A stretch of DNA of 8,799 nucleotides, taken from assembly GCA_003520455.1 (NCBI GenBank), contig DOUV01000006.1, positions 1 to 8,799 of the forward strand. Reading direction: 5' to 3'. This DNA comes from Chloroflexota bacterium (lineage in GTDB: Bacteria; Chloroflexota; Anaerolineae; Ardenticatenales; Ardenticatenaceae). The notes beneath the pieces were generated by a model. It was given only the letters and a program-made list of their open reading frames with translations, made no database searches and was not told where the DNA came from. Shown here one piece after another: positions 1 to 8,799 of this stretch (the stretch's first letter is position 1; each line of letters starts with the position of its first letter). A program made the position numbers and the translations under genes.

Positions 1-1
1 A

Positions 2-73
2 GCTGCCTCGGCCGCGGGCGAGGGCGCCACCGCCGCGCTGATGATCCGGGAGTATCTGAAGGAGGTCGGCTAA
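2..73 (+). CDS. Thioredoxin-reductase-like flavoprotein, C-terminal end (partial)
   Basis: Only the last 23 codons are inside the window; the gene starts to the left. The visible tail contains AAGEGATAALMIREYL followed by KEVG and a TAA stop. An A-x-G-E-G-A-x-A-A tract followed by a short amphipathic helix is the usual C-terminus of thioredoxin reductases and related FAD/NAD(P)H-dependent disulfide oxidoreductases, where it forms the last FAD-contacting segment and helix. The neighbours support this: the next gene is a peroxiredoxin-like protein that would need a reductant, and the stop lies about 60 bp before it, so both probably belong to one operon. The catalytic CxxC region is not visible, so a ferredoxin-NADP reductase-like or other member of the family cannot be excluded. 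Confidence 0.72.
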   Translation, partial: AASAAGEGATAALMIREYLKEVG

Positions 74-132
74 GATTGCAGGCATGCACCCAGCCAGTCG
101 ATGGTTCACGGGAACGGGGCTTCGGAGAGACG

Positions 133-693
133 ATGATCGTGCAACCAGGTGAGACGGCACCGGATTTCACCCTGAAGTCGGTCGAGGGACCACCGATCGC
201 CCTGGGCGAGATACTGTCTGGCGGGCGGAATGCCCTGCTGGTCTTCTTGCGCCACCTGGGCTGACTGCCCTGCCGCGAGCATGTGGCGCAGTTGCGCCAT
301 CGGCAGGAAGAACTCACCTGGCTGAACGCCCAGGTGCTGCTCATCTCCTTCGGTACCAACGCCTGGGCCCGAGCCTGGCTGCGGGAGACCGGGGCCCCCT
401 TTCCGTTGCTCATCGACCCGCAGCGGCGTGTCTATCGCGCCTACGGCCTCAAGCGCTCGATCCTTCGCGTGTGGAGCCTCAAGGTGTTGTGCCACTACCT
501 GCGCTTGATGCGCGCTGGCCGCCGCTTGCGCCCGATCCAGGGCGATCCTCACCAACTCGGCGGAGACGTTATCGTGGATACATACGCTGTGGTCCGCCTG
601 GCTCACCAAAGCAGCGACCCCACCGACCGGCCGCCGGTGGAGACCCTGCTGGCGGTGCTGCGCGAGATTGAGAAGGAAAGGAAAAGGTCGTGA
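133..693 (+). CDS. Peroxiredoxin-like selenoprotein (AhpC-TSA_2 / SelU-like), Sec at TGA 262-264
   Basis: Predicted 186-residue thioredoxin-fold protein, probably a cytoplasmic thiol/selenol peroxidase or reductase. The frame is interrupted only by TGA 262-264, which would be Sec44. The surrounding peptide is FLRHLG-U-LPC-REHVAQLR. Family members normally read FLRH-x-G-C-x-x-C-REH there, so the TGA replaces the first catalytic Cys of a CxxC pair (U44, C47). Family features continue beyond it: WARAWLRETGAPFPLLIDP, VYRAYGL, then GDPHQLGGDVIVD and SSDPTDRPPVETLL near the C-terminus, as expected for AhpC-TSA_2 proteins. The ATG at 133 is preceded by GGAGAG and leads directly into the family start (GETAPDF); a TTG at 76 would add 19 unlikely residues. 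The TGA stop overlaps the next gene's GTG by 4 bp (GTGA). The family is clear; the substrate is unknown. Ordinary gene callers would split this into two fragments. Confidence 0.88.
270..306 (+). promoter_or_regulatory. Candidate bacterial SECIS element for Sec44
   Basis: A hairpin lies just downstream of the in-frame TGA 262-264. The upper stem pairs 284-289 (TGGCGC) with 294-299 (GCGCCA) and closes an AGTT loop, with G in the second loop position. A lower stem pairs 270-275 (CTGCCG) with 301-306 (CGGCAG). The apical loop begins 25 nt after the TGA. Bacterial SECIS elements recognised by SelB are coding-region hairpins directly after UGA, with a G early in the apical loop and a loop distance of roughly 16-37 nt; this one fits. 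The structure was paired by eye and no folding energy was computed. Confidence 0.7.
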
Positions 694-1652
694 CGCTGGG
701 AGACATGCTTGTTGGGGCACGCGAGAGAACTTTGAACCTGGCGCTGGGGGTGCGACCGGGCGAAATCCTCAATCCGGCCATCTCGGAGCCGGCCCTCCAG
801 GAGAGTCAAGACATTGCGGCAGAGTTGAAGCAAGCCATCACCGCCTTCAAAGCAAGCGCCTTCGACGGTCATCAGGGAAACGACACAATCCTGCGCCAGA
901 GCGCGGCCTACATCACCTACCGCACCACCTGCTCGCCACAACTGCGTGAGCTTGACTTGACGACGCTCACCACCCGCGAGGAGCGGCTGGCGTTCTGGAT
1001 TAACCTGTACAATGCCCTCGTGATCGATGCCGTCATCGCATTGGGGGTGCAACACAGTGTGACCGAGGGACGCGCCGGGGTGCTCACGTTTTTCCGCCGC
1101 GCGGCCTATATCGTAGGCGGGCAACGCTTCAGTTGCGAGGACGTCGAACATGGGATCTTGCGGGCCAATCGCGGCCATCCCATCCTTCCAGGCCCGCAGT
1201 TCGGACCCTCCGACCCGCGGCGTGCCTCTGTGATCGCGCCCGTCGATCCTCGAATCCATTTCGCGCTCAACTGTGCCAGCCGCTCGTGCCCGCCCATCGG
1301 TGTGTACAGCGCCGGGCAGATTGATGCGCAGCTCGATCTGGCGACCGCCAACTTCCTGGCCGCCGATGTCGCTGTTGACCCGGCCTCCGGATCGATGCAC
1401 CTCTCGTCGATCTTCCGCTGGTACGCCGGCGACTTCGGTGGCCGCGCAGGCCTGATCGCCTTCCTGCTGCGCCACCTGCGCGACGACGAGCACCGCGCCT
1501 GGTTGCTGAAGCACCGGGAATCGGCCCGTTTCGTCTACCGGCCGTACGACTGGTCCTTGAATGTTTGGGGCTCTTCACAGTACAATGACCGGCGTATGGC
1601 TGCCAACAAACGTACCGATACCGAGGTGAGGCCGAAACATGAACGACCCTGA
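690..1652 (+). CDS. DUF547 domain protein
   Basis: Predicted 320-residue protein of the DUF547 family, whose biochemical function is not established. Recognisable family blocks are RLAFWINLYNALVIDAVI (about residues 99-116), HFALNCASRSCPPIGVYSA (190-208, with conserved Cys195 and Cys200), SSIFRWYAGDFGG (239-251) and the terminal YDWSLN (286-291). No signal peptide or membrane segment is evident, so it is probably cytoplasmic. It starts with GTG at 690, overlapping the stop of the selenoprotein before it by 4 bp, behind a purine-rich AAGGAAAGG ribosome-binding region. Its end overlaps the next selenoprotein gene by 14 bp. Being sandwiched between two thioredoxin-fold selenoproteins, and having the NCASRSC cysteine pair, suggests a thiol-linked role; that is inference from context. 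About 29 residues after YDWSLN look like an unconserved tail. Confidence 0.88.
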   Translation: MTLGDMLVGARERTLNLALGVRPGEILNPAISEPALQESQDIAAELKQAITAFKASAFDGHQGNDTILRQSAAYITYRTTCSPQLRELDLTTLTTREERLAFWINLYNALVIDAVIALGVQHSVTEGRAGVLTFFRRAAYIVGGQRFSCEDVEHGILRANRGHPILPGPQFGPSDPRRASVIAPVDPRIHFALNCASRSCPPIGVYSAGQIDAQLDLATANFLAADVAVDPASGSMHLSSIFRWYAGDFGGRAGLIAFLLRHLRDDEHRAWLLKHRESARFVYRPYDWSLNVWGSSQYNDRRMAANKRTDTEVRPKHERP

Positions 1653-2340
1653 CCTGCTGTCGCGCTACAACTACGCCGAGTTCGTTCCCGAGAAATTCGA
1701 GCCCTGGCTCAACTTTGAAGCCAGTCCTCCGCTCGGCCGGCCAGCGCCCGACTTCCCTCTGTGGGAGTTGGACGGTAGCGAGACGCGCCTGAGCGCCATC
1801 TGGTCGCAACATGCTTACACCATCGTTGAGTTCGGCAGTTTCACCTGACCATACTGTGGGATGGCGGCGCCATCCATGAATGCCATCGCCGAGCGCTTTG
1901 CAAGACAAGGGGTCGGGTCGATCTTCCTCTACACGCATGAGGCCCATCCCGGTGAGTACTACCCGCACCTTACCTCGATGGAACAAAAATCCCGCCACGC
2001 CCGCGCCTTGCGGGACGTGTTGGGCGTCACGCGACCGATTCTACTCGATTCGCTGGACGGCGCGTGCCACCGCACCTACGGGTCGATGCCCAATATGAGT
2101 TGGATTTTCACTCGCGCGGGGGTCCCAGTCTACAAATCCGACTGGACCGACGCCCGGAGCGTTGCCAACGCTGTCGAGTTTTTCGTGGATGTCCTCGACC
2201 GGCGGAAGAGTGGGGAACGGCTGGCACCCTTTCGGGTGGAGCGGCTCGACTTCCGGACGCAGGACCGAGAGGCATTCTACCGGGGGCTCGAGCGCAACGG
2301 TCCCAAGGCAGTGCGGGAATATCGGGCGGCGTTTGGTTAG
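1639..2340 (+). CDS. Deiodinase-like thioredoxin-fold selenoprotein, Sec at TGA 1846-1848
   Basis: Predicted 233-residue protein. The frame is open from ATG 1639 to TAG 2338-2340 except for TGA 1846-1848, predicted Sec70. The local peptide VEFGSFT-U-PYC-GMAAPSMN resembles the FGSCTUPPF active site of iodothyronine deiodinases and their bacterial relatives. Downstream, GSIFLYTHEAHPGE (deiodinase family: YIEEAHPSDG-like) and ILLDSLDGACHRTYGSMPN also match that family's thioredoxin fold. The U-x-x-C arrangement (U70, C73) resembles redoxins more than vertebrate deiodinases, so a general selenol-disulfide or peroxide-reducing activity is more likely than deiodination; substrate unknown. The ATG at 1639 has a GAGGTGAGG ribosome-binding site 8 nt upstream and overlaps the DUF547 gene by 14 bp. 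No signal peptide is visible. Without Sec decoding the product would be a 69-residue stub lacking the catalytic motif. Confidence 0.87.
1859..1875 (+). promoter_or_regulatory. Candidate bacterial SECIS element for Sec70
   Basis: A perfect 7-bp stem, GGATGGC (1859-1865) with GCCATCC (1869-1875), closes a GGC triloop. The loop starts 17 nt after TGA 1846-1848, the same spacing I count from memory for E. coli fdhF, and has G in its first two positions. It lies inside the coding sequence, as bacterial SECIS elements do. The pairing is plain in the sequence; recognition by SelB is inferred. Confidence 0.72.
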
Positions 2341-2383
2341 TTCGGCTCCACGGCCGAGACCCGGCGCCAGGAAGTGGTCTCAT

Positions 2384-2644
2384 ATGGCTGGCATAATCCG
2401 TTCACTGTGGGAGATGTTGGTTGCTCCGGGAGACTCCGATCGCGCCACGGCGCCAACCTGCGATGAGTGCTTCGCGATTTTAGAGTATCTGGCGGATACA
2501 GCCGCCGCCGGGGGTGACTCAGAGGCTCTCCGGCAGGCAGCACGGCGCCACCTCACCCAGTGCCCGAACTGCCGCAAGCACCACCTGCGTCGCTTGCAGG
2601 AATTGGAGTCGGAACTGGCGAACTCGAGCCCTCGTGATACCTGA
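2384..2644 (+). CDS. Small zinc-ribbon / zf-HC2-like protein
   Basis: Predicted 86-residue hypothetical protein and the last gene of the + strand redox operon. It carries Cys26-x2-Cys29 and a His56-x3-Cys60-x2-Cys63 motif (HLTQCPNC), the H-x3-C-x2-C pattern of zinc-binding anti-sigma (zf-HC2-like) domains. Two further His follow at 66-67, then a charged, probably helical tail. No membrane segment is seen, so it would be a soluble zinc or redox-sensing protein; whether it binds a sigma factor is unknown. The ATG at 2384 was chosen over an upstream one because the earlier part would overlap the selenoprotein gene by about 180 bp and looks out of frame; AGGAAG lies about 10 nt upstream. The start is 43 bp after the selenoprotein stop. 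It is convergent with the large regulator gene, only 4 bp separating the stops. Confidence 0.72.
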   Translation: MAGIIRSLWEMLVAPGDSDRATAPTCDECFAILEYLADTAAAGGDSEALRQAARRHLTQCPNCRKHHLRRLQELESELANSSPRDT

Positions 2645-2648
2645 GGGG

Positions 2649-5588
2649 TCAAGAAGATGCGAACTGGCGCACCAGTTCGTCGAGTCTTCGCGCTTTCCCC
2701 CGCTCCTGAGCCGCGGCCGCCTGCTGCGCGGAAAGTTGGAGGGCCAACTCAGAGAGAAGATGTTCGGCCCGATCTCGAGTCGTCTTTGAATTGGCCGGGT
2801 GGTGAAGGACAAGCACCAACATTTCGATTGCCCGCGCTTTTTCCCCGTCCTGCGCCAGGAGCGCAGCGATCGAGGTCACTATGTGCAGGACCGCATGGAC
2901 CGTCTTTATATTCGCCATGATTTTTAAGGCTTCCCGGAAGTAGTGCCCGGCGGGCCGATATTCTCCCAGCGCATACGCGACCTCGCCCAGATTATTGAGG
3001 CAGGCGCCAATTCCAAGCTGGTCATTGAGCCTGGTACGAAAGGCGAGGCTCTCCTGATAAAATTGTTTGGCTTCAGCATACTCTTTCAGAAAATACGCCA
3101 CATTGCCCAGGTTATTGAGAACCCGCGCCATCAGGAGTTGTTCTTCCATCGCCCGGCAAATCGCGAGACTGTCCTGGAAGAGTTGTTTCGCCTCCAGATA
3201 CTCTCCCGTCCACGTAGCCACAGTGCCCAGGTAGAGGAGGGCTCGGGCTGTTCCGTATCGATCACCGACCTCTCTCGAAATCGCAAGACTCTTTTGATGA
3301 TACTGCCTGGCCTCTGCATACTCTCCCCGGCTAAATGCCAGACTGCCCAGGTAGAGAAGCGGGAAGGACAGCCCTGGCCGGGCACCCCAATGGCGCAAGA
3401 GAGACAGACTCGTCTGCAGAAACTCCCCGGCTTGCGCATATTGACCGAGTTCGATACAAAATGCGCCCCGTCGCGCCAGAATCTGACCGAGGAGGAGGCC
3501 CGTTGGTCTTTGAAGCTCCTCCACCTGTTCGATCTGCCCGCGCAGTTTCTCCACGGCGCGCCCGAAGGTTTCCTCTCCCTCCTGAAACCACCCGCGCACT
3601 TCGTAGAAGTGCCGAAGGCTTTCCAGGGATTTCGCGATTTCCGCTTCCTTTCCCCTGGCGATCGCCCACCGCCAACTCGCCCGAACATTGTCAATCTCCG
3701 CGCCGATTTCCTCCAGCGCCGCCTCGCATCGTGACCCCGTCAGGTCACTTTCCCGTTGCTCGAGAAAGGCCGCGTAGTAGCCGCAGTGCAGCTCCTGGAT
3801 CATCTCCTCTTCCCCAGGCACCGCCTGGAGTTTCTGCTGCGCGTACTGCCTGAGGACCTCGTGCACCTCAAACCGTCCCGCGGCGTCGCAGCGCAACAGC
3901 GATTTGCGCTCCAACGCCGAAAGGACGAGACGAGAGGCGGCCGCCACGCGTGCGGCCGCCTCTTGCCGAAAGCCACCCCGAAAGACCGACAGCCGCCGGA
4001 AGACACGCTGCTCCTCGTCCGAAAGCAACGCCCACGAGTGGTCGAACGCTGCCCGCAGGCTGCGGTGGCGGGGAGGCACATCTCGGAGGGTCGTGCGCAG
4101 GAAGTCCAGGTTGCGTTCAAGCGCCTCGGCGATCTCACGGCACGACCGCTCCCCCACCTGCGCCGCCGCCAACTCAATCCCCAGCGGCATCCCCGACACC
4201 AGCTTGCAGATGCGAACCACGAAGGATTCTTCTTCTGAAGGCGAGAACCGCCAGTCAAGCTGCCGTGCGCGCTGCAGAAACAACTGCACGGCGCTGTACC
4301 TCACCCCACTCCCCCCGCCCCCCTCTCCCCTCTCCTGGCAGGAGAGGGGAGAGGGGGCTACGGTGGTGCGGGATGAGGTCGGATACGCCAACCCTTCGAT
4401 CGCGAAGAGCCATTCGGCCCGCAGGTTCAGCCGCTCGCGAGACGTGACCAGCAGTTTCACCTCCGGTGCCCCCTCCAGGAGATCCACAATCAGGTCTGTC
4501 CCCTCCAGGAGATGCTCGAAATTGTCCAGCACCAGGAGTAGCTCCTTCGCCCCCAGGTACTTGAGCAACTGCACTTTGGGCTCTTCGCGGCCGTAGAAGG
4601 AGCAGCCCAGGGCGTCGGCGACGGCGGGAATCACGTGCTCGGGTGAACTGACCGGGGTCAGGGGAACAAAGGTGACCCCATGCAGGAAGGCATCAACATG
4701 CTGTGCCGCCGCCTGGATGGCCAGACGCGTCTTGCCGATTCCGCCGGGCCCCACGAGGGTCACCAGCCGGCAGCCCGGATCCGCCAGCCGCCGGGCCAAC
4801 GCTTCCAGTTCTGCTTCCCGGCCGACGAAGCTCGTGGGTTGCAGTGGCAGATTGTGCCGGCGCACCGGCGCCACCAGAATGCGCTCGTAGAGCGCCTGCG
4901 TCTCCTGCGAGGGCTCCGCCCCGAATTCTTCGGCCAGCACCCGCCGGCACGATTCGTACTGCGCCAGGGCGGCGCCACGCTGCCCAGTCCGGGCCAGCAG
5001 CCACATCACCTGCCGGTGGGCCTCTTCGCGCCAGGGGTCCAACGCCAGCAGGCGCATGGCCCAGCGGAGGCCTGCCCGGTACTCACCGCGGCCGGTGTGG
5101 TAGGCGATGAGTTCCTGCAACACCCGGGTGGCCCGCTGGTACCAGCTCTCGCGTTGCACCACCAGCCAGGTCTCGAACTCGGGACACCCCTCCAGCTCGA
5201 GCCCCGCCAGGAATTCCCCGCGATACAACTCGGCCGCCGCGGCGAGGGCAGCGGGCTCCCCCTGGGCCACCAGGTCCACGAAGGCCACCGTGTCCAGCCA
5301 AAAGCGGGGGCCGGGGCGGAATTGCACGCTGTGGCGATCAACCTGGAGGCAGCCAGGCAGCAGGGTGGCCAGTCTGTGCAGCACCCAACTGAGGTTGGCC
5401 CGGCCGCGAGCTTCTGTCTTCTCGCCCCAGAACAAATCCGCCAGGTGGCTGCGGGAGACGGGGCGAGCCTGCAGCGCGAGGTAGGAGAGCACCGCCAGCG
5501 CCTTGCGGGACTTGAAGCCGCGCACGGGCTTTCCCTCGCGCTCCACCTGCACGGCTCCGAATAACCGCAGATGGAAGATGGCTTCCAT
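2649..5588 (-). CDS. AfsR/SARP-type regulator: BTAD + NB-ARC ATPase + TPR
   Basis: Predicted 979-residue cytoplasmic transcriptional regulator. Domains in order: an OmpR-like winged helix (about 1-100, starting FHLRLFGAVQV), a bacterial transcriptional activation domain (about 100-245, with LALDPWREEAHRQVMWLLA), an NB-ARC/STAND ATPase (about 253-590) and TPR repeats (about 690-890, G-Y-A-E-A type units). ATPase motifs visible are Walker A GPGGIGKT (280-287), Walker B LLLVLDNFE (350-358), the LLVTSRE sensor (379-385), GMPLGIELAA (466-475) and an MHD-like VHEVLRQYA (575-583). SARP proteins bind heptamer direct repeats upstream of -10 boxes and activate RNA polymerase; STAND ATPase and TPR parts usually sense a ligand or partner. 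A strong AGGAGGGG site precedes the ATG. Residues 404-430 are encoded by an inserted palindromic repeat. Its likely targets are the divergent promoters at 5783 and 7159. The effector is unknown. Confidence 0.9.
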   Translation of the reverse strand: MEAIFHLRLFGAVQVEREGKPVRGFKSRKALAVLSYLALQARPVSRSHLADLFWGEKTEARGRANLSWVLHRLATLLPGCLQVDRHSVQFRPGPRFWLDTVAFVDLVAQGEPAALAAAAELYRGEFLAGLELEGCPEFETWLVVQRESWYQRATRVLQELIAYHTGRGEYRAGLRWAMRLLALDPWREEAHRQVMWLLARTGQRGAALAQYESCRRVLAEEFGAEPSQETQALYERILVAPVRRHNLPLQPTSFVGREAELEALARRLADPGCRLVTLVGPGGIGKTRLAIQAAAQHVDAFLHGVTFVPLTPVSSPEHVIPAVADALGCSFYGREEPKVQLLKYLGAKELLLVLDNFEHLLEGTDLIVDLLEGAPEVKLLVTSRERLNLRAEWLFAIEGLAYPTSSRTTVAPSPLSCQERGEGGGGSGVRYSAVQLFLQRARQLDWRFSPSEEESFVVRICKLVSGMPLGIELAAAQVGERSCREIAEALERNLDFLRTTLRDVPPRHRSLRAAFDHSWALLSDEEQRVFRRLSVFRGGFRQEAAARVAAASRLVLSALERKSLLRCDAAGRFEVHEVLRQYAQQKLQAVPGEEEMIQELHCGYYAAFLEQRESDLTGSRCEAALEEIGAEIDNVRASWRWAIARGKEAEIAKSLESLRHFYEVRGWFQEGEETFGRAVEKLRGQIEQVEELQRPTGLLLGQILARRGAFCIELGQYAQAGEFLQTSLSLLRHWGARPGLSFPLLYLGSLAFSRGEYAEARQYHQKSLAISREVGDRYGTARALLYLGTVATWTGEYLEAKQLFQDSLAICRAMEEQLLMARVLNNLGNVAYFLKEYAEAKQFYQESLAFRTRLNDQLGIGACLNNLGEVAYALGEYRPAGHYFREALKIMANIKTVHAVLHIVTSIAALLAQDGEKARAIEMLVLVLHHPANSKTTRDRAEHLLSELALQLSAQQAAAAQERGKARRLDELVRQFASS
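4299..4379. repeat. Palindromic interspersed repeat inside the regulator gene
   Basis: An 81-bp palindrome-like element. The core is a perfect 19-bp inverted repeat, 4319-4337 against 4339-4357, around a single G at 4338, rich in CCCCTCTCC/GGAGAGGGG. Imperfect outer arms (ACCTCACCCCAC on the left, GATGAGGT on the right) continue the symmetry. Its 81 bp is a multiple of 3 and is read in frame as residues 404-430 (Ser/Gly/Arg-rich), which resemble no part of the NB-ARC fold. It looks like a MITE or REP-type insertion tolerated in the linker between the nucleotide-binding and helical subdomains. Other copies in the genome cannot be checked here. Confidence 0.75.
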
Positions 5589-5652
5589 GGCCCCTCCTTG
5601 CTACCTGGCAAGAACCTGGACGGGGTTTTTCTCAAGCCTGGCGGAATGCCCT

Positions 5653-5681
5653 ACCTTAACACACTCTCATGGCGAGAGCAA
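5653..5681 (-). promoter_or_regulatory. Possible sigma70-type promoter of the regulator gene
   Basis: On the - strand, TTGCTC (5681-5676) is followed after 17 bp by TAAGGT (5658-5653), a plausible -35/-10 pair about 65 bp before the regulator's ATG. A small inverted repeat, CTCTC/GAGAG (5664-5678), falls between the boxes and could be an operator. Matches to consensus are modest and this is a weak prediction. Confidence 0.3.
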
Positions 5682-5734
5682 GAAGGGAAACGGTCTCACG
5701 GGCGAACACCTCTTCAGCGACCTGCTCTGAAGTT

Positions 5735-5841
5735 TTGCTTGTGCACGCAGGAAGAATTTCAAGACCCGGTATGCGAAGAAGTCTAAGAGTAGCCTAAGAG
5801 TCGCGCTGTAGATTGGGTGCGGAAGCAGGTCGAGAGGGCGC
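5735..5841. repeat. Direct repeat, copy A (~107 bp)
   Basis: Aligns with 7110-7217 with about 9 mismatches and one 1-nt indel (roughly 91% identity by eye). The conserved stretch starts near TTGCTTGTGC, includes GGAAGAATTTCAAGACCCGG and the tandem heptamers, and ends at CAGGTCGAG followed by GGGCGC. The flanks on both sides are unrelated, so this is a discrete duplicated unit that carries a promoter rather than part of a longer duplication. Confidence 0.85.
5783..5814 (+). promoter_or_regulatory. Candidate SARP-dependent promoter, copy A
   Basis: CTAAGAG (5783-5789), a 4-bp spacer TAGC, CTAAGAG (5794-5800), 8 bp, then a -10-like TAGATT (5809-5814). SARP activators such as AfsR and ActII-ORF4 bind 7-bp direct repeats with 11-bp periodicity ending 8 bp before the -10 box, and this layout matches exactly. 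The bases that would form a -35 box (about 5786-5791) do not resemble TTGACA, consistent with activator dependence. Transcription would start near 5821 and run towards the small gene at 5952. The site lies divergently upstream of the SARP gene. Confidence 0.62.
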
Positions 5842-5846
5842 CCCTG

Positions 5847-6572
5847 TCACCGGGCAGTGGCCGGCTGCCAGTGCGCCCCCCCTTGCGGGCTGCGCCGTTG
5901 CCCGATCGGACGCAGCGGGGCGGCCGCATCTCGGAAAGCGACGGAGGCACTGTGGCCGCAGGCAAGGCAGACCCATCCCGCGCCTACCTGCCACGCTGCT
6001 GGCGGGAAGGGCGTTCCGCCGAGGACGGCGAAGCCCTCTGGCGCTTCTCGCTCGAGGAAGTGGGCGGGGCGCGACGCCGGCTTGGCTTGACGACCCTGGA
6101 AGCGTTTCTCGCCCTTGTCTCGGCCAAGCCTTCGCCGGGCGCCCGCACCGAGGCGGGCGGGATTGTCACTCCCAGCCGGCGGTACGCCTAGTCCCAGCCA
6201 GCCCTCTATCTCGGCAAGGACCTGATTCAAACGCGGCTGGTCGGTGGGGGCAAGACGATCTGCTGCTCCAATGTGCTTGTGGTGAGGGTGGGTTGCGATT
6301 TCAGGATGGTGGGGAGCGTTGTCGTAGCGAAAGACGCGTTTCCCCGCGCGGAGGTACCTATACGCATAATGCACGCGGACAGGATAGCCCAACTCAGTGC
6401 TGACGACCTCATAAATGTCGAGGGAAGAACCATCCCAGAAATAGACTCGACAACGTACAAGCCCGTTGTAGTTATCCGAGGCAAGGAACGTGATGGGTTC
6501 CTCGACTTGACCAACGCGGATATTCTGCCGCAAGCTGCGTTCGATGGAGGCAAAGTAGTCGTCAATCGTCAA
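5847..6572 (-). CDS. TumE-like toxin (DUF6516 family) with run-on C-terminal extension
   Basis: Putative toxin of the TumE/DUF6516 type-II toxin-antitoxin family; its cellular target is not known to me. Residues 1-126 (6572 down to 6195) carry the family pattern: TIDDYFASIERSL at the start, CRVYFWDGSSLDIYE in the middle, then HYAYRYL, FRYDNAPHHPE, HPHHKH and a final LAEIEGWL, where such proteins usually stop. The start chosen is TTG 6572-6570, which overlaps the antitoxin's TGA by 4 bp (TTGA); an in-frame ATG at 6650 would overlap the antitoxin by 82 bp. The frame has no stop after EIEGWL and continues for about 115 codons antisense to the small gene at 5952. The extension is low-complexity and probably not native: a TAG lies one base out of frame just after the domain (6190-6188). 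The domain is confident; activity of the extended product is doubtful. Confidence 0.72.
   Translation of the reverse strand: MTIDDYFASIERSLRQNIRVGQVEEPITFLASDNYNGLVRCRVYFWDGSSLDIYEVVSTELGYPVRVHYAYRYLRAGKRVFRYDNAPHHPEIATHPHHKHIGAADRLAPTDQPRLNQVLAEIEGWLGLGVPPAGSDNPARLGAGARRRLGRDKGEKRFQGRQAKPASRPAHFLEREAPEGFAVLGGTPFPPAAWQVGAGWVCLACGHSASVAFRDAAAPLRPIGQRRSPQGGAHWQPATAR
5952..6191 (+). CDS. Small 'CWREG...WRFSLEEV' protein, copy A
   Basis: Predicted 79-residue hypothetical protein of unknown function. It begins with GTG at 5952 behind GGAGG at 5943-5947. Residues 1-58 match the product of 8365-8574 at about three quarters identity, including the shared stretches SRAYL, RCWREG, WRFSLEEVG and TLEA. 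A matching reading frame and conserved start context in two divergent copies support real coding. After residue 58 the two proteins part company: this copy ends in an unrelated Pro/Gly/Arg-rich tail, suggesting its natural 3' end was replaced. No membrane segment is visible; a charged helical protein is likely. It lies about 130 bp downstream of the candidate SARP promoter. Unlike copy B it is not followed by the membrane-protein gene but by a convergent toxin gene. Confidence 0.65.
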   Translation: MAAGKADPSRAYLPRCWREGRSAEDGEALWRFSLEEVGGARRRLGLTTLEAFLALVSAKPSPGARTEAGGIVTPSRRYA

Positions 6573-6790
6573 GCGCCCGCTGGCTCCGAACGCTGCATAA
6601 ACTGGCGGACAGGCAAGGAGGTCAAGTACAAATGATACAGTCCTGCCCACATCATCAAATCGTCATCATCACCCCATTCGCCGTTTTGGAAACGGCGATA
6701 GAACTCGATGGTCGAGCAGCCATACTTGTCCTCGAATTCGCGCAGGCGTTCGCTCAGTTCATCAAAAGATAGCCGTTGCGCTTTGAACAT
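6569..6790 (-). CDS. TumA-like antitoxin
   Basis: Predicted 73-residue acidic protein directly upstream of, and overlapping, the TumE-like toxin gene. The central segment, with LSERLREFEDKYG, EFYRRFQNGEWGDDDD and WAGLYHLYL, is the pattern of small proteins usually paired with DUF6516 toxins, where they neutralise the toxin and often autoregulate. The start ATG (6790-6788) has GGAG 8 nt upstream on the - strand; in-frame ATGs at 6832 and 6856 lack a well-placed ribosome site and lie before the conserved part. Stop TGA (6571-6569) overlaps the toxin's TTG, giving tight translational coupling. No classical DNA-binding domain is evident by eye. Confidence 0.72.
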   Translation of the reverse strand: MFKAQRLSFDELSERLREFEDKYGCSTIEFYRRFQNGEWGDDDDLMMWAGLYHLYLTSLPVRQFMQRSEPAGA

Positions 6791-7109
6791 ACTGCTTGCT
6801 CCATCATTGATTACATTACGGTTCTTAATCATTCCTTCCGCCAACGATTCTAGCATGGACTGCAGGCACGCGTCAAACGCTCCCCCGCCTACCTGACTGT
6901 GTGACTGTGTGACTGTTCACAGTTGGGCAATCGGTCAATCAGGCAAAGGACGAATGCAACTTCCTCCGTCCCACTACCACCTTCGCCAGCGCCGCCGGCA
7001 CGGAGGCCAGCCCGGCCTCGGCCAGCGCCAGCAACACAATGATCAACTGCACCACGCTCACGCCCACCCCAACCAACGCGGCCTCGGCGACAGCCACGCA
7101 TCTGGGCTC
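6791..7109. other. Intergenic stretch upstream of the antitoxin
   Basis: No convincing gene. The antitoxin promoter should lie in the first part, but no strong -35/-10 pair was found. One + strand frame over about 6954-7120 is very rich in Thr, Ala and Ser (for example TLTPTPTNAASATATH), recalling the Thr/Pro linkers of secreted Chloroflexota proteins. It has no start codon or recognisable domain, so at best it is a gene remnant. Confidence 0.4.
6894..6917. repeat. Short tandem repeat, 3 x 8 bp
   Basis: TGACTGTG (6894-6901), TGACTGTG (6902-6909) and TGACTGTT (6910-6917) stand head to tail. The last unit is followed by CACAGT, which can pair with ACTGTG. It lies about 100 bp upstream of the antitoxin start, so an operator role is possible but unsupported. 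Confidence 0.6.
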
Positions 7110-7217
7110 TTGCCTGTGCCGGCAGGAAGAATTTCAAGACCCGGTAGGCGAAGAAAGTCTAAGAGTCGCCTAAGAGTCGCGCTGTAGACTGGATGCGGAA
7201 CCAGGTCGAGCGGGCGC
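7110..7217. repeat. Direct repeat, copy B (~108 bp)
   Basis: Second copy of the unit at 5735-5841, same orientation, about 91% identical by eye with one extra A in the AAGAAAG run. Together the copies bracket about 1.27 kb holding the small gene and the toxin-antitoxin pair. Confidence 0.85.
7159..7190 (+). promoter_or_regulatory. Candidate SARP-dependent promoter, copy B
   Basis: CTAAGAG (7159-7165), spacer TCGC, CTAAGAG (7170-7176), 8 bp, then TAGACT (7185-7190) as a -10 box. Both heptamers and the 8-bp spacing to the -10 are identical to copy A, while bases around them vary, which suggests the heptamers are under selection. The expected start point is near 7197, and the first good gene downstream is the secreted protein at 7518. 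Confidence 0.6.
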
Positions 7218-7517
7218 GCAGGCTACCACACTGGCCCTCATTGTTAACGTGCAGCAAACCAGATCCCGTTCCAAAGCCTCGTCATCCAACCAGTAGGGGC
7301 TTTCGCGGTTGAATGCGGCGGTCTCGCTGGTAATAAGGCGAGTGAAAATGCACGAGTCGAAGCAGGAGGTGAGTCGAAATGGCAGAATAGTCTACCTGAT
7401 CACGCAACACGCGAGCGAGGTTCGTGGTGAGCCACGCCGCAAAGCGGAGTCGCCTCGGACAGCACCCCACCCCGTCCTATGCCTGACTACGAACAATATT
7501 CTACGAGGAGGAAAATT
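7218..7517 (+). other. Long leader between promoter copy B and the secreted-protein gene
   Basis: No gene is supported in this 300-bp stretch. Short open frames exist on both strands (7309-7521 +, 7282-7470 -), but neither has a ribosome-binding site or a motif I recognise. One small hairpin is visible, CTCGC (7323-7327) with GCGAG (7338-7342). The last bases hold the strong GAGGAGGA ribosome site of the next gene. If copy B is the active promoter, this is an unusually long 5' untranslated region of about 320 nt. Confidence 0.4.
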
Positions 7518-8132
7518 ATGAAACGCTCACTCTGTCTCTTCATGTTGGCAGCTATGTTGATGGTGCTGACAACCACTATCGCACTGGCTCAACAACCGGA
7601 TTATGACGCGGTCAAGGCCAAGTTCGCTGGCACCACCCTGGCCGACTGGCCGGACTACGTGAAGGCGGAGCCCTTCTGTATAGATGCCAGCCTCATCGGT
7701 CAGCCGCAGTTGGGCGCAATGGGCTTTCACGCCGGCAACATGGCACTGTTCGACCTCGAGGTCAACGCTCTGGAGCCCGAGTTTCTGCTGCTGGATGGTG
7801 ACGACAACGTGGTCGGAGTGGAGTACATGGTGGTCTCCAAGGAGCAAGGACGGCCAGAGCTCCTTGGGCAACCCTTCGAAGAGTCGGACCCCCACCCGCC
7901 GGCAGTCCCGCAGCCCCACTATGACCTGCACGTCTGGTTCGTAGGCGACCCGGCGGTCCGCTTCGCGCCCTTCAACCCGGCGGTGACGTGCCCGGCAGGG
8001 ACGATGCCGCCTATGGAGATGCCCACCACGGGCGGCGAAGGCACGAATCGGCCTCTGGTCAGTGGCCTGTTGGCCCTGGTGGGTGTGTTGGCGATTCTAG
8101 CGGGTCTCAAACAACGTCATCGAGTTGCCTAG
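7518..8132 (+). CDS. Secreted protein with C-terminal MPTTG-type anchor
   Basis: Predicted 204-residue exported protein of unknown function. Residues 1-25 form a classical signal peptide (KR, hydrophobic core, ALA-QQ cleavage site). The mature domain (about 26-160) contains MGFHAGNMALFD, EPEFLLLDGDDNVVGVEYMVV and HYDLHVWFVGD, then FAPFNPAVTCP. This resembles a widespread bacterial family of small secreted proteins without assigned activity. The conserved histidines (71, 134, 138) could bind a metal, and Cys54 and Cys158 could form a disulfide. The C-terminus has MPTTGG (168-173), a hydrophobic stretch (about 179-197) and a basic end (KQRHR), the layout of a sortase-type sorting signal with Met instead of Leu. 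The ATG at 7518 follows GAGGAGGA by 5 nt. It lies downstream of promoter copy B and before a palindromic element. Confidence 0.82.
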   Translation: MKRSLCLFMLAAMLMVLTTTIALAQQPDYDAVKAKFAGTTLADWPDYVKAEPFCIDASLIGQPQLGAMGFHAGNMALFDLEVNALEPEFLLLDGDDNVVGVEYMVVSKEQGRPELLGQPFEESDPHPPAVPQPHYDLHVWFVGDPAVRFAPFNPAVTCPAGTMPPMEMPTTGGEGTNRPLVSGLLALVGVLAILAGLKQRHRVA

Positions 8133-8225
8133 AGCGCCGGTCAAGTAGTCGCTGGGCACGCGTGATCGGAGACTTCCGAAGTCTCGGAAGACTTCGGAAG
8201 TCTGACTACTTGACCGATGCTCTAG
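8129..8225. repeat. 97-bp palindromic element (MITE/REP-like), possible terminator
   Basis: Outer arms 8129-8150 and 8204-8225 are inverted repeats matching at 20 of 22 positions (CTAGAGC, then CGGTCAAGTAGTC). Inside is a perfect 14-bp inverted repeat, AGACTTCCGAAGTC (8170-8183) with its complement at 8190-8203. The left arm begins inside the stop region of the secreted-protein gene. As RNA it would form a long hairpin and could act as a bidirectional terminator, though no U-tract follows. The nested symmetry is more like a palindromic mobile element. Confidence 0.75.
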
Positions 8226-8364
8226 CATCACGAGAGATAGCCGGTCACATCGGATAACGCGGCGTTGGTGAAGTCGTGGGCCGCCGAAGAACGCCGCTCG
8301 TCGCTTCATCAACGCCGGGCCCGTTCGCCGCAATCACAAGGCATCTTGGAAAACAGGGGGCACC

Positions 8365-8574
8365 GTGGCCGAAGGCAAGGCAGACCTATCCCGCGCTTAC
8401 CTGCTGCGCTGCTGGCGGGAAGGGCATTCCGCCGAGGAGGGCGAAGCCGCCTGGCGCTTCTCGCTCGAGGAAGTTGGTGAGGAGCGGCGCCGGCGGGGGT
8501 TCATGACCCTGGAAGCGCTCCTTGCCTTCCTGCGGTCCGAGTTGGGGGGCGCGCAGGCGGAGTTGAGTCAATGA
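8365..8574 (+). CDS. Small 'CWREG...WRFSLEEV' protein, copy B
   Basis: Predicted 69-residue hypothetical protein, paralogue of the product at 5952-6191 over its first ~58 residues. GTG start with a G-rich AGGGGG site just upstream; DNA similarity to copy A extends about 25 bp before the start (GCATCT-GGAAA). The protein is highly charged, with RCWREG, WRFSLEEVG, RRRRGF and LEALLAFLRSEL, suggesting a helical cytoplasmic adaptor, but no function is known to me. The C-terminus (RSELGGAQAELSQ) looks natural. Its TGA overlaps the ATG of the membrane-protein gene by 4 bp (ATGA), so the two are probably translated together. This arrangement suggests copy A lost such a partner. Confidence 0.72.
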   Translation: MAEGKADLSRAYLLRCWREGHSAEEGEAAWRFSLEEVGEERRRRGFMTLEALLAFLRSELGGAQAELSQ

Positions 8575-8799
8575 GGAAGATTTCCATGCGTTCTCTTATC
8601 AGCAGGCTCTTCATTCCATCTGGTCTTGCTGTCGGGCTACTTATCCTGGCCCTGGGGCTGCTGCAAGGGGCCACGATCTGGAGCGTGGCCGGCCTGGCGG
8701 TCCTGGCAGGACTCTCTGCCTGCGGATGGTGGATTGCACGCTTCGGGCCGCGCCGTGTCGCCACAATCCGCAATCCGGGTAGTGTCACCCGGTATTCGC
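8571..8799 (+). CDS. Membrane protein, N-terminal part (cut by window end)
   Basis: About 76 codons are visible and the frame is open at the window end. The N-terminus is basic (MRKISMRSLISR), followed by a hydrophobic segment (about residues 17-35, GLAVGLLILALGLLQGA) and a second one (about 38-57, WSVAGLAVLAGLSACGWWIA), then the Arg-rich FGPRRV. It could be a two-helix membrane anchor or an uncleaved signal followed by a large domain; the family cannot be told. The ATG at 8571 overlaps the preceding stop and has GCGGAG 8 nt upstream; an in-frame ATG at 8586 is an alternative start. Confidence 0.65.
   Translation, partial: MRKISMRSLISRLFIPSGLAVGLLILALGLLQGATIWSVAGLAVLAGLSACGWWIARFGPRRVATIRNPGSVTRYS

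Follow-up and report, generated by a model that had tools for sequence, protein, structure and literature searches.

The DNA considered here, called the window in what follows, is an 8,799-nucleotide stretch from a Chloroflexota bacterium of the Ardenticatenaceae (assembly GCA_003520455.1, contig DOUV01000006.1, positions 1 to 8,799 of the forward strand). At 1639–2340 it carries a gene whose product resembles the iodothyronine deiodinases and whose reading frame contains an in-frame UGA. The original prediction took it for a deiodinase-like selenoprotein gene; this observation is confirmed as real, and its interpretation is supported. Translated with TGA as selenocysteine (Sec, U), the frame holds a single TGA, in the sequence FGSFT-U-PYC, and no other stop until the terminal TAG. 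Translation reproduces the claimed TGA at 1846–1848 as U70 and brings both EAHPGE (residues 101–106, nucleotides 1939–1956) and LLDSLDGACHRTYG (residues 135–148, nucleotides 2041–2082) into frame. The only Sec or Cys residues of the protein are U70, C73 and C143. The features of the gene are given below, with row counts referring to an alignment (A2) of 39 rows, of which 33 are close and six are delta relatives.

1639–2340, + strand: deiodinase-like selenoprotein gene, 233 residues with the UGA read through; homologues span the whole length
1846–1848, + strand: in-frame UGA, predicted Sec70; TGA in 64 of 67 related genes, Cys in P0003, P0009 and P0025
1855–1857, + strand: codon of Cys73, which is predicted to be the resolving Cys in UxxC; Cys in 33/33 close and 2/6 delta rows
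1859–1875, + strand: selenocysteine insertion sequence (SECIS)-like hairpin, 7-bp stem, GGC loop at 1866–1868; covariation, and the lowest seven-codon synonymous entropy in the gene
1939–1956, + strand: EAHPGE motif, in which Glu101 and His103 are aligned to Glu160 and His162 of Dio2
2065–2067, + strand: Cys143 codon, third and last redox-capable residue; Cys in 32/33 close and 0/6 delta rows
2089–2091, + strand: Pro151 codon, by place the thioredoxin cis-Pro position; Pro in 33/33 close and 5/6 delta rows

Judged by sequence comparison, 1639–2340 is very probably one gene interrupted by a UGA that is read as selenocysteine. Relatives came from two sources: a scan of one genome per species, which yielded 39 loci, and a sample of 396 genomes from the class of genome G023, in which nine of the 29 gene-bearing genomes already belonged to the first set. 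Pooled at E ≤ 1e-40 they amount to 67 genes (66 loci plus the window), or 55 distinct TGA genes once the nine second copies are set aside. TGA stands at the place of residue 70 in 64 of the 67; within the first scan, the best match passes through it in 36 of 39 loci. The three exceptions are damaged in different ways: L034 has the TGA with a frameshift directly after it, L035 is frameshifted near the site, and L033 is missing the larger part of the protein's first third. Near-full or long strong matches occur in 29 of the 396 class-mates (that of G217 in two pieces), each with exactly one TGA, and short high-identity pieces in G405 and G188 that end before the site were left out of the counts. 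Matches at E ≤ 0.001 extend to 154 class-mates overall, the weaker ones being mostly 25–40% identical stretches of the wider fold family. None of the 67 related genes examined has TAA, TAG or Cys at the Sec place. Cys is found there in three relatives from the protein set, P0003 (81% identical and the nearest row to the window), P0009 and P0025, all of them uninterrupted proteins. In the best tree (43 rows) the Cys forms fall on two branches within the TGA group, but the bootstrap had not settled, and the well-supported branches taken alone would allow one origin too.

The public record of this protein is itself shaped by the UGA. Among the 120 best-listed database matches, 112 are entries of only 154–161 residues that cover 66–68% of the query and, judged by their length, would begin downstream of the UGA (the sequences were seen for P0008 and P0010); these copies are thus annotated without the N-terminal third, and the active site is absent from them. 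P0010, a partial protein 97% identical to that of the window, is named as coming from an Ardenticatenaceae bacterium. Among viral contigs, 40 pattern matches included no relative, and plasmids gave a single distant place at 26.7% identity. A Mycolicibacterium plasmid (L071, 2318–4288) carries a gene annotated as deiodinase-like between a carboxymuconolactone-decarboxylase-family gene and a glutaredoxin gene.

A hairpin with seven perfect base pairs and a GGC loop had been predicted downstream of the UGA, at the spacing of Escherichia coli fdhF. The stem is indeed located at 1859–1875, with 17 nt between UGA and loop; the fdhF gene of strain MG1655 has 18 nt to a GGTC loop, so the spacing is similar rather than the same. 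Only five perfect hairpins of 7 bp and 3 nt exist on the + strand of the entire window, and this one has what is expected of a bacterial SECIS element, being small, just downstream and with G in its apical loop. Synonymous entropy, taken over every run of seven degenerate codons, reaches its minimum at codons 73–81, with 0.54 bits where the gene averages 1.31. With seven stem pairs in each of the 55 distinct genes, 374 of the 385 cells hold a standard pair, and both sides have changed in 13 cells; the observed pairing or number of double changes was reached by none of 2000 column shuffles, a test that is lenient since the sequences are related. Sliding the partners by 1–3 bases lowers the paired cells to 110–236. 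The double changes, from A-U to C-G, G-C to C-G and G-C to U-A, are seen in several lineages. Apical loops read GGC in 35 genes, GTC in 17, GGG in two and TGC in one, and the UPPF-type delta relative L036 has a different stem at the same place, GUGGGGGA-GGU-UCCCCCAC. Rfam gave no match at gathering score in the window, and on 200–2400 at E up to 5 only three matches to unrelated families (E 0.47–2.4).

Relatives also tend to possess the decoding machinery. In the 39 genomes of the first scan, tRNA-Sec scores above the Rfam cut-off in 37 and SelB above its cut-off in 33. In the class sample, tRNA-Sec (E ≤ 1e-11) occurs in 292 of 396 genomes, including all 29 gene carriers (hypergeometric p = 1e-4, with the co-occurrence read by eye from match lists). 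Could the UGA nevertheless mean something else? As a true stop it would separate two genes or mark a pseudogene, a picture that the many short database entries fit; but in all 64 genes the two halves have been kept along with a TGA, in no case a TAA or TAG, the Cys forms run on uninterrupted and the hairpin covaries, which leaves this account scarcely any chance. Smaller still, and practically negligible, is the chance that the host decodes UGA as a standard amino acid such as Trp. The entries of P0004 and P0013 do show Trp at the site; against this, Cys takes its place in three relatives, tRNA-Sec is present in relatives, and three other predicted window genes end on UGA in the ordinary way (691–693, 1650–1652 and 2642–2644), so that the code is unchanged. 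Plain stop and Trp were both rejected on the conserved TGA, the covarying hairpin and the UGA stops of the other window genes.

What kind of protein would this selenocysteine serve? The structure model (pLDDT 96.2) shows a thioredoxin-like fold whose closest solved structures are Dio2 and Dio3, followed by thiol-disulfide reductases and peroxiredoxins, and mouse Dio3 and Dio2 rank first in both the profile search and the structure comparison. The deiodinase resemblance first noticed in the motif is thereby borne out at the level of the whole fold. Among family profiles, the protein scores 24.9 bits against PF00837 (cut-off 27), which matches 18 of the 39 alignment rows at E ≤ 3e-6, the window row not among them; it reaches 31.8 bits against PF00578 (AhpC-TSA, cut-off 26), and Redoxin is also above its cut-off. 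In the model the active-site helix 71–88 starts right after U70, and the redox pair thus sits at a helix N-terminus. Pro151 directly precedes strand 153–158, its cis-Pro position being assigned by sequence place; the aligned residues of Dio3 and Dio2 are not Pro.

The proton relay described for Dio2 consists of Ser127, Thr129, Tyr157, Glu160, His162 and His182 (PMC11592359). Its first five residues correspond here to Ser67, Thr69, Tyr98, Glu101 and His103, which are conserved in 31–33 of the 33 close rows. DIO1 forms a selenenyl-sulfide with its proximal Cys124 (PMC9141512), a place occupied here by Phe68, so that Sec70 has no Cys two residues before it; Cys73, three residues after, would be its natural selenenyl-sulfide partner. 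No hydrophobic N-terminal stretch was seen by eye, with no transmembrane program run, and the N-terminal helices of the model span only 4–10 and 17–23. P0005, P0006 and P0007 form a small lineage of natural active-site variants that retains both Cys73 and Cys143.

Taken together, the whole is best explained if this member of the bacterial deiodinase-like family is a thiol reductase/peroxidase, soluble, of thioredoxin fold and dependent on Sec, a reading that we regard as probable on the strength of sequence and model. The UxxC pair with Cys73, Pro151 and the Phe in the proximal place favor a reductase/peroxidase cycle, and a thioredoxin-style Sec/Cys pair in the active site makes redox chemistry more likely than thyroid-hormone work. 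In such a cycle, SelB with Sec-tRNA would read the UGA at 1846–1848 at the hairpin and insert Sec70, a step that the comparison strongly supports. Sec70, where the active-site helix begins, would then act as the attacking selenolate, with Ser67, Thr69, Tyr98, Glu101 and His103 passing a proton to the leaving group. Cys73 would close the selenenyl-sulfide, to be re-reduced by a cellular thiol system that is ultimately driven by NADPH. Its natural substrate would most likely be a peroxide or else a disulfide, in a protein or a small molecule, and less probably an iodothyronine.

Other chemistries have to be weighed against this cycle. The protein could be a dedicated peroxiredoxin-type peroxidase, with disulfide reduction merely a side activity, and like AhpC/TSA peroxiredoxins it shares the fold and a PF00578 match above cut-off. 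In the published description, however, Sec peroxiredoxins carry a TxxU peroxidatic motif, and the TxxC/TxxU spacing is absent here: T69 stands immediately before U70, the redox residue is part of UxxC, and UxxC plus the Pro151 position is reductase-like. We therefore consider such a peroxidase unlikely. That the nearest solved folds are Dio2 and Dio3, with five relay residues matched, would suit a reductive dehalogenase of small halogenated compounds, in which Sec70 takes the halogen as the animal enzymes take iodine, using the same proton relay. But Phe68 stands in place of the DIO1/DIO3 proximal Cys, Leu replaces the second relay His in 28 of 33 close rows, profile alignments give Dio a loop after EAHP that is 9–12 residues longer, UxxC and Pro151 indicate disulfide chemistry, and no dehalogenation family occurs among 20 typed neighbor proteins of relatives; a dehalogenase is quite unlikely. 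A role of the U/C pair in handling metal or metalloid ions such as mercury or selenium seems very improbable. It could be read into the genes for FAD disulfide oxidoreductases (8) and VTT-domain membrane proteins (12) that lie within 4 kb at 57 distinct loci of relatives; neither is found among the scanned window proteins, and a cis-Pro is generally regarded as a hindrance to metal binding in the thioredoxin fold.

Several observations weigh against the selenocysteine-dependent reductase/peroxidase itself. Folding of the 55 nt from the UGA is ordinary (z +1.01, with equal or better folding in 172 of 200 shuffles), so that single-sequence folding is uninformative for the hairpin and its support is comparative. 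Neither tRNA-Sec nor SelB exceeds its cut-off in G003, although its gene is of the TGA type, or in G009, and SelB falls below cut-off in G005, G006, G012 and G038; G003 (locus L003), labeled a Planctomycetota chromosome, may be a real counter-example or a binning fault. At the Sec place P0005, P0006 and P0007 have Leu or Phe while C73 is retained, which a strict UxxC mechanism leaves unexplained, and the Trp of P0004 and P0013 is known from protein entries only. The sixth relay residue, His182 in Dio2, is Leu111 here, a position with Leu in 28 and His in three of the 33 close rows and His in all six delta rows. Finally, gene neighborhoods vary between relatives, and the neighbor counts given below stand without a chance expectation.

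Compared with known systems, the protein stands nearest to the bacterial deiodinase-like selenoproteins. A 2005 report on the Sargasso Sea gave four Sec-containing sequences of this kind and suggested a redox function (PMC1088965), and GOS data added 22 in a table that gives no motif (PMC2398784). Two reviews (PMC9312934 and PMC13188914) tabulate deiodinase-like proteins with the motif UxxC, alongside DUF3179 with UxxC/T and Prx-like proteins with UxxC; the protein kind is therefore already known. With these the window protein shares its bacterial origin, the in-frame UGA, a bacterial-type SECIS, UxxC and the existence of Cys forms; it lies just below the PF00837 cut-off of this related family and is likened to the tabulated representatives by motif. 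With Dio1–3 it shares the thioredoxin-like fold, the closest solved structures, the FGSxTUP core, EAHP and five of six relay residues. It differs from them in UPYC instead of UPPF, the Pro at the cis-Pro position, a shorter loop after EAHP, a membrane anchor that was not seen, and Phe68 without a proximal Cys, a place two before Sec that is Ala in DIO2. Thiol-disulfide oxidoreductases of the ResA/TlpA type have in common with it the fold, a redox pair at a helix start and a Pro before a strand, whereas the window protein has no secretion signal by eye, an extra N-terminal YNY segment, C-terminal helices and the deiodinase-type EAHP. Our literature search found no paper joining selenoprotein, deiodinase-like and Chloroflexota. 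What is new here is the depth of comparative evidence for the clade, the structure-level link to Dio and the gene clusters: a family with four and 22 sequences in the cited parts of earlier metagenome surveys is now a clade sampled in depth, its Sec site validated by comparison. As a soluble bacterial protein, it makes two long-standing questions testable: the role of bacterial deiodinase-like proteins, and the route from a redox enzyme to a dehalogenase.

Upstream, the gene is the third in a tight order that begins with a second UGA-containing gene.

133–693, + strand: SelL-related redox protein gene, 186 residues with the UGA read through; NF040769, 166.1 bits, cut-off 120
262–264, + strand: another in-frame UGA, for a predicted Sec44 in the motif ULPC; L008 and L042 share the TGA at this place
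269–307, + strand: SECIS-like hairpin in the SelL-related gene, with an AGTT loop on its inner stem (283–300); folding z −2.65
690–1652, + strand: DUF547 protein gene; PF04784, 134.8 bits; overlaps the SelL-related gene by 4 bp and the deiodinase-like gene by 14 bp

In aquatic bacteria SelL is the UxxU form. The gene at 133–693, which scores above the curated cut-off, has UxxC. The post-UGA hairpins of the SelL-related genes in L008 and L042 keep the AGTT loop, their inner stems being changed yet still pairing. The gene overlaps suggest that the deiodinase-like gene is probably co-expressed with the SelL-related selenoprotein and the DUF547 protein. A DUF547 model of moderate quality (pLDDT 81.8) had no PDB match at E ≤ 0.001, and no literature on bacterial DUF547 function was found among the matches listed, judged by titles and abstract starts.

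A fixed SelL-DUF547-deiodinase-like operon was not found across the 57 distinct loci of relatives. Within 4 kb, the SelL-related gene is present only in L042 (75 bp upstream) and L008 (2.4 kb upstream), and DUF547 only in L033, the locus whose deiodinase-like gene is without most of its first third. Other neighbors are VTT-domain proteins (12), FAD disulfide reductases (8), DUF3179 (8), G6PD (5), GrdB-like proteins (3) and 6-phosphogluconolactonase (2), next to SelL-related (2) and DUF547 (1); the flanks of class-sample loci reach about 1.5 kb at most, which makes these counts low. A selenium-uptake reading of the VTT neighbor was dropped, no pertinent literature being found among the matches listed. 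At six loci (L006, L007, L013, L020, L024 and L043) the DUF3179 gene just upstream has an in-frame TGA at its CxxC place, W-U-P-(L/I)-C, where the adjacent DUF3179 of L035 and L067 has Cys. Short GrdB-like genes directly downstream (L029:2951–3916, L030:2431–3393 and L031:6716–7678) likewise contain an in-frame TGA, in V-U-P-(V/I)-C. From the in-frame TGA in these adjoining SelL-related, DUF3179 and GrdB-like genes it appears that other UxxC selenoprotein genes sometimes accompany the deiodinase-like gene.

These clusters invite a wider proposal, which we put forward tentatively and hold to be rather unlikely as a whole: a clade of Sec enzymes centered on the Chloroflexota might have kept the greater part of the deiodinases' proton relay on a UxxC/cis-Pro chassis of thioredoxin type, stand near the ancestral state of the animal deiodinases, and serve, in small clusters of UxxC selenoproteins (SelL-related, DUF3179, GrdB-like), as a redox relay dedicated to Sec. 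If this were true, the animal deiodinases would have arisen from such a state by loss of the resolving Cys and the Pro.

The remainder of the window holds further features. At 2649–5588 (− strand) lies a 979-residue SARP-type regulator (BTAD, NB-ARC/AAA, TPR), inside whose frame a C/G-rich inverted repeat near 4310–4360 was seen by eye. An open reading frame (ORF) at 5847–6650 (− strand) matches TumE (PF20126, 72.2 bits), a family of toxins from toxin-antitoxin pairs, and is adjoined by a 95-residue ORF at 6569–6856 (− strand). Also by eye, two pairs of highly similar stretches were noted, at about 5733–5820/7118–7204 and at 5951–6070/8365–8490, the second of which includes a small paralogous ORF (69 residues at 8365–8574). 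The ORF at 7479–8132 (+ strand, 217 residues) has only weak matches, a signal-like start and a C-terminal PTTGG followed by a hydrophobic tail resembling a sortase-type anchor.
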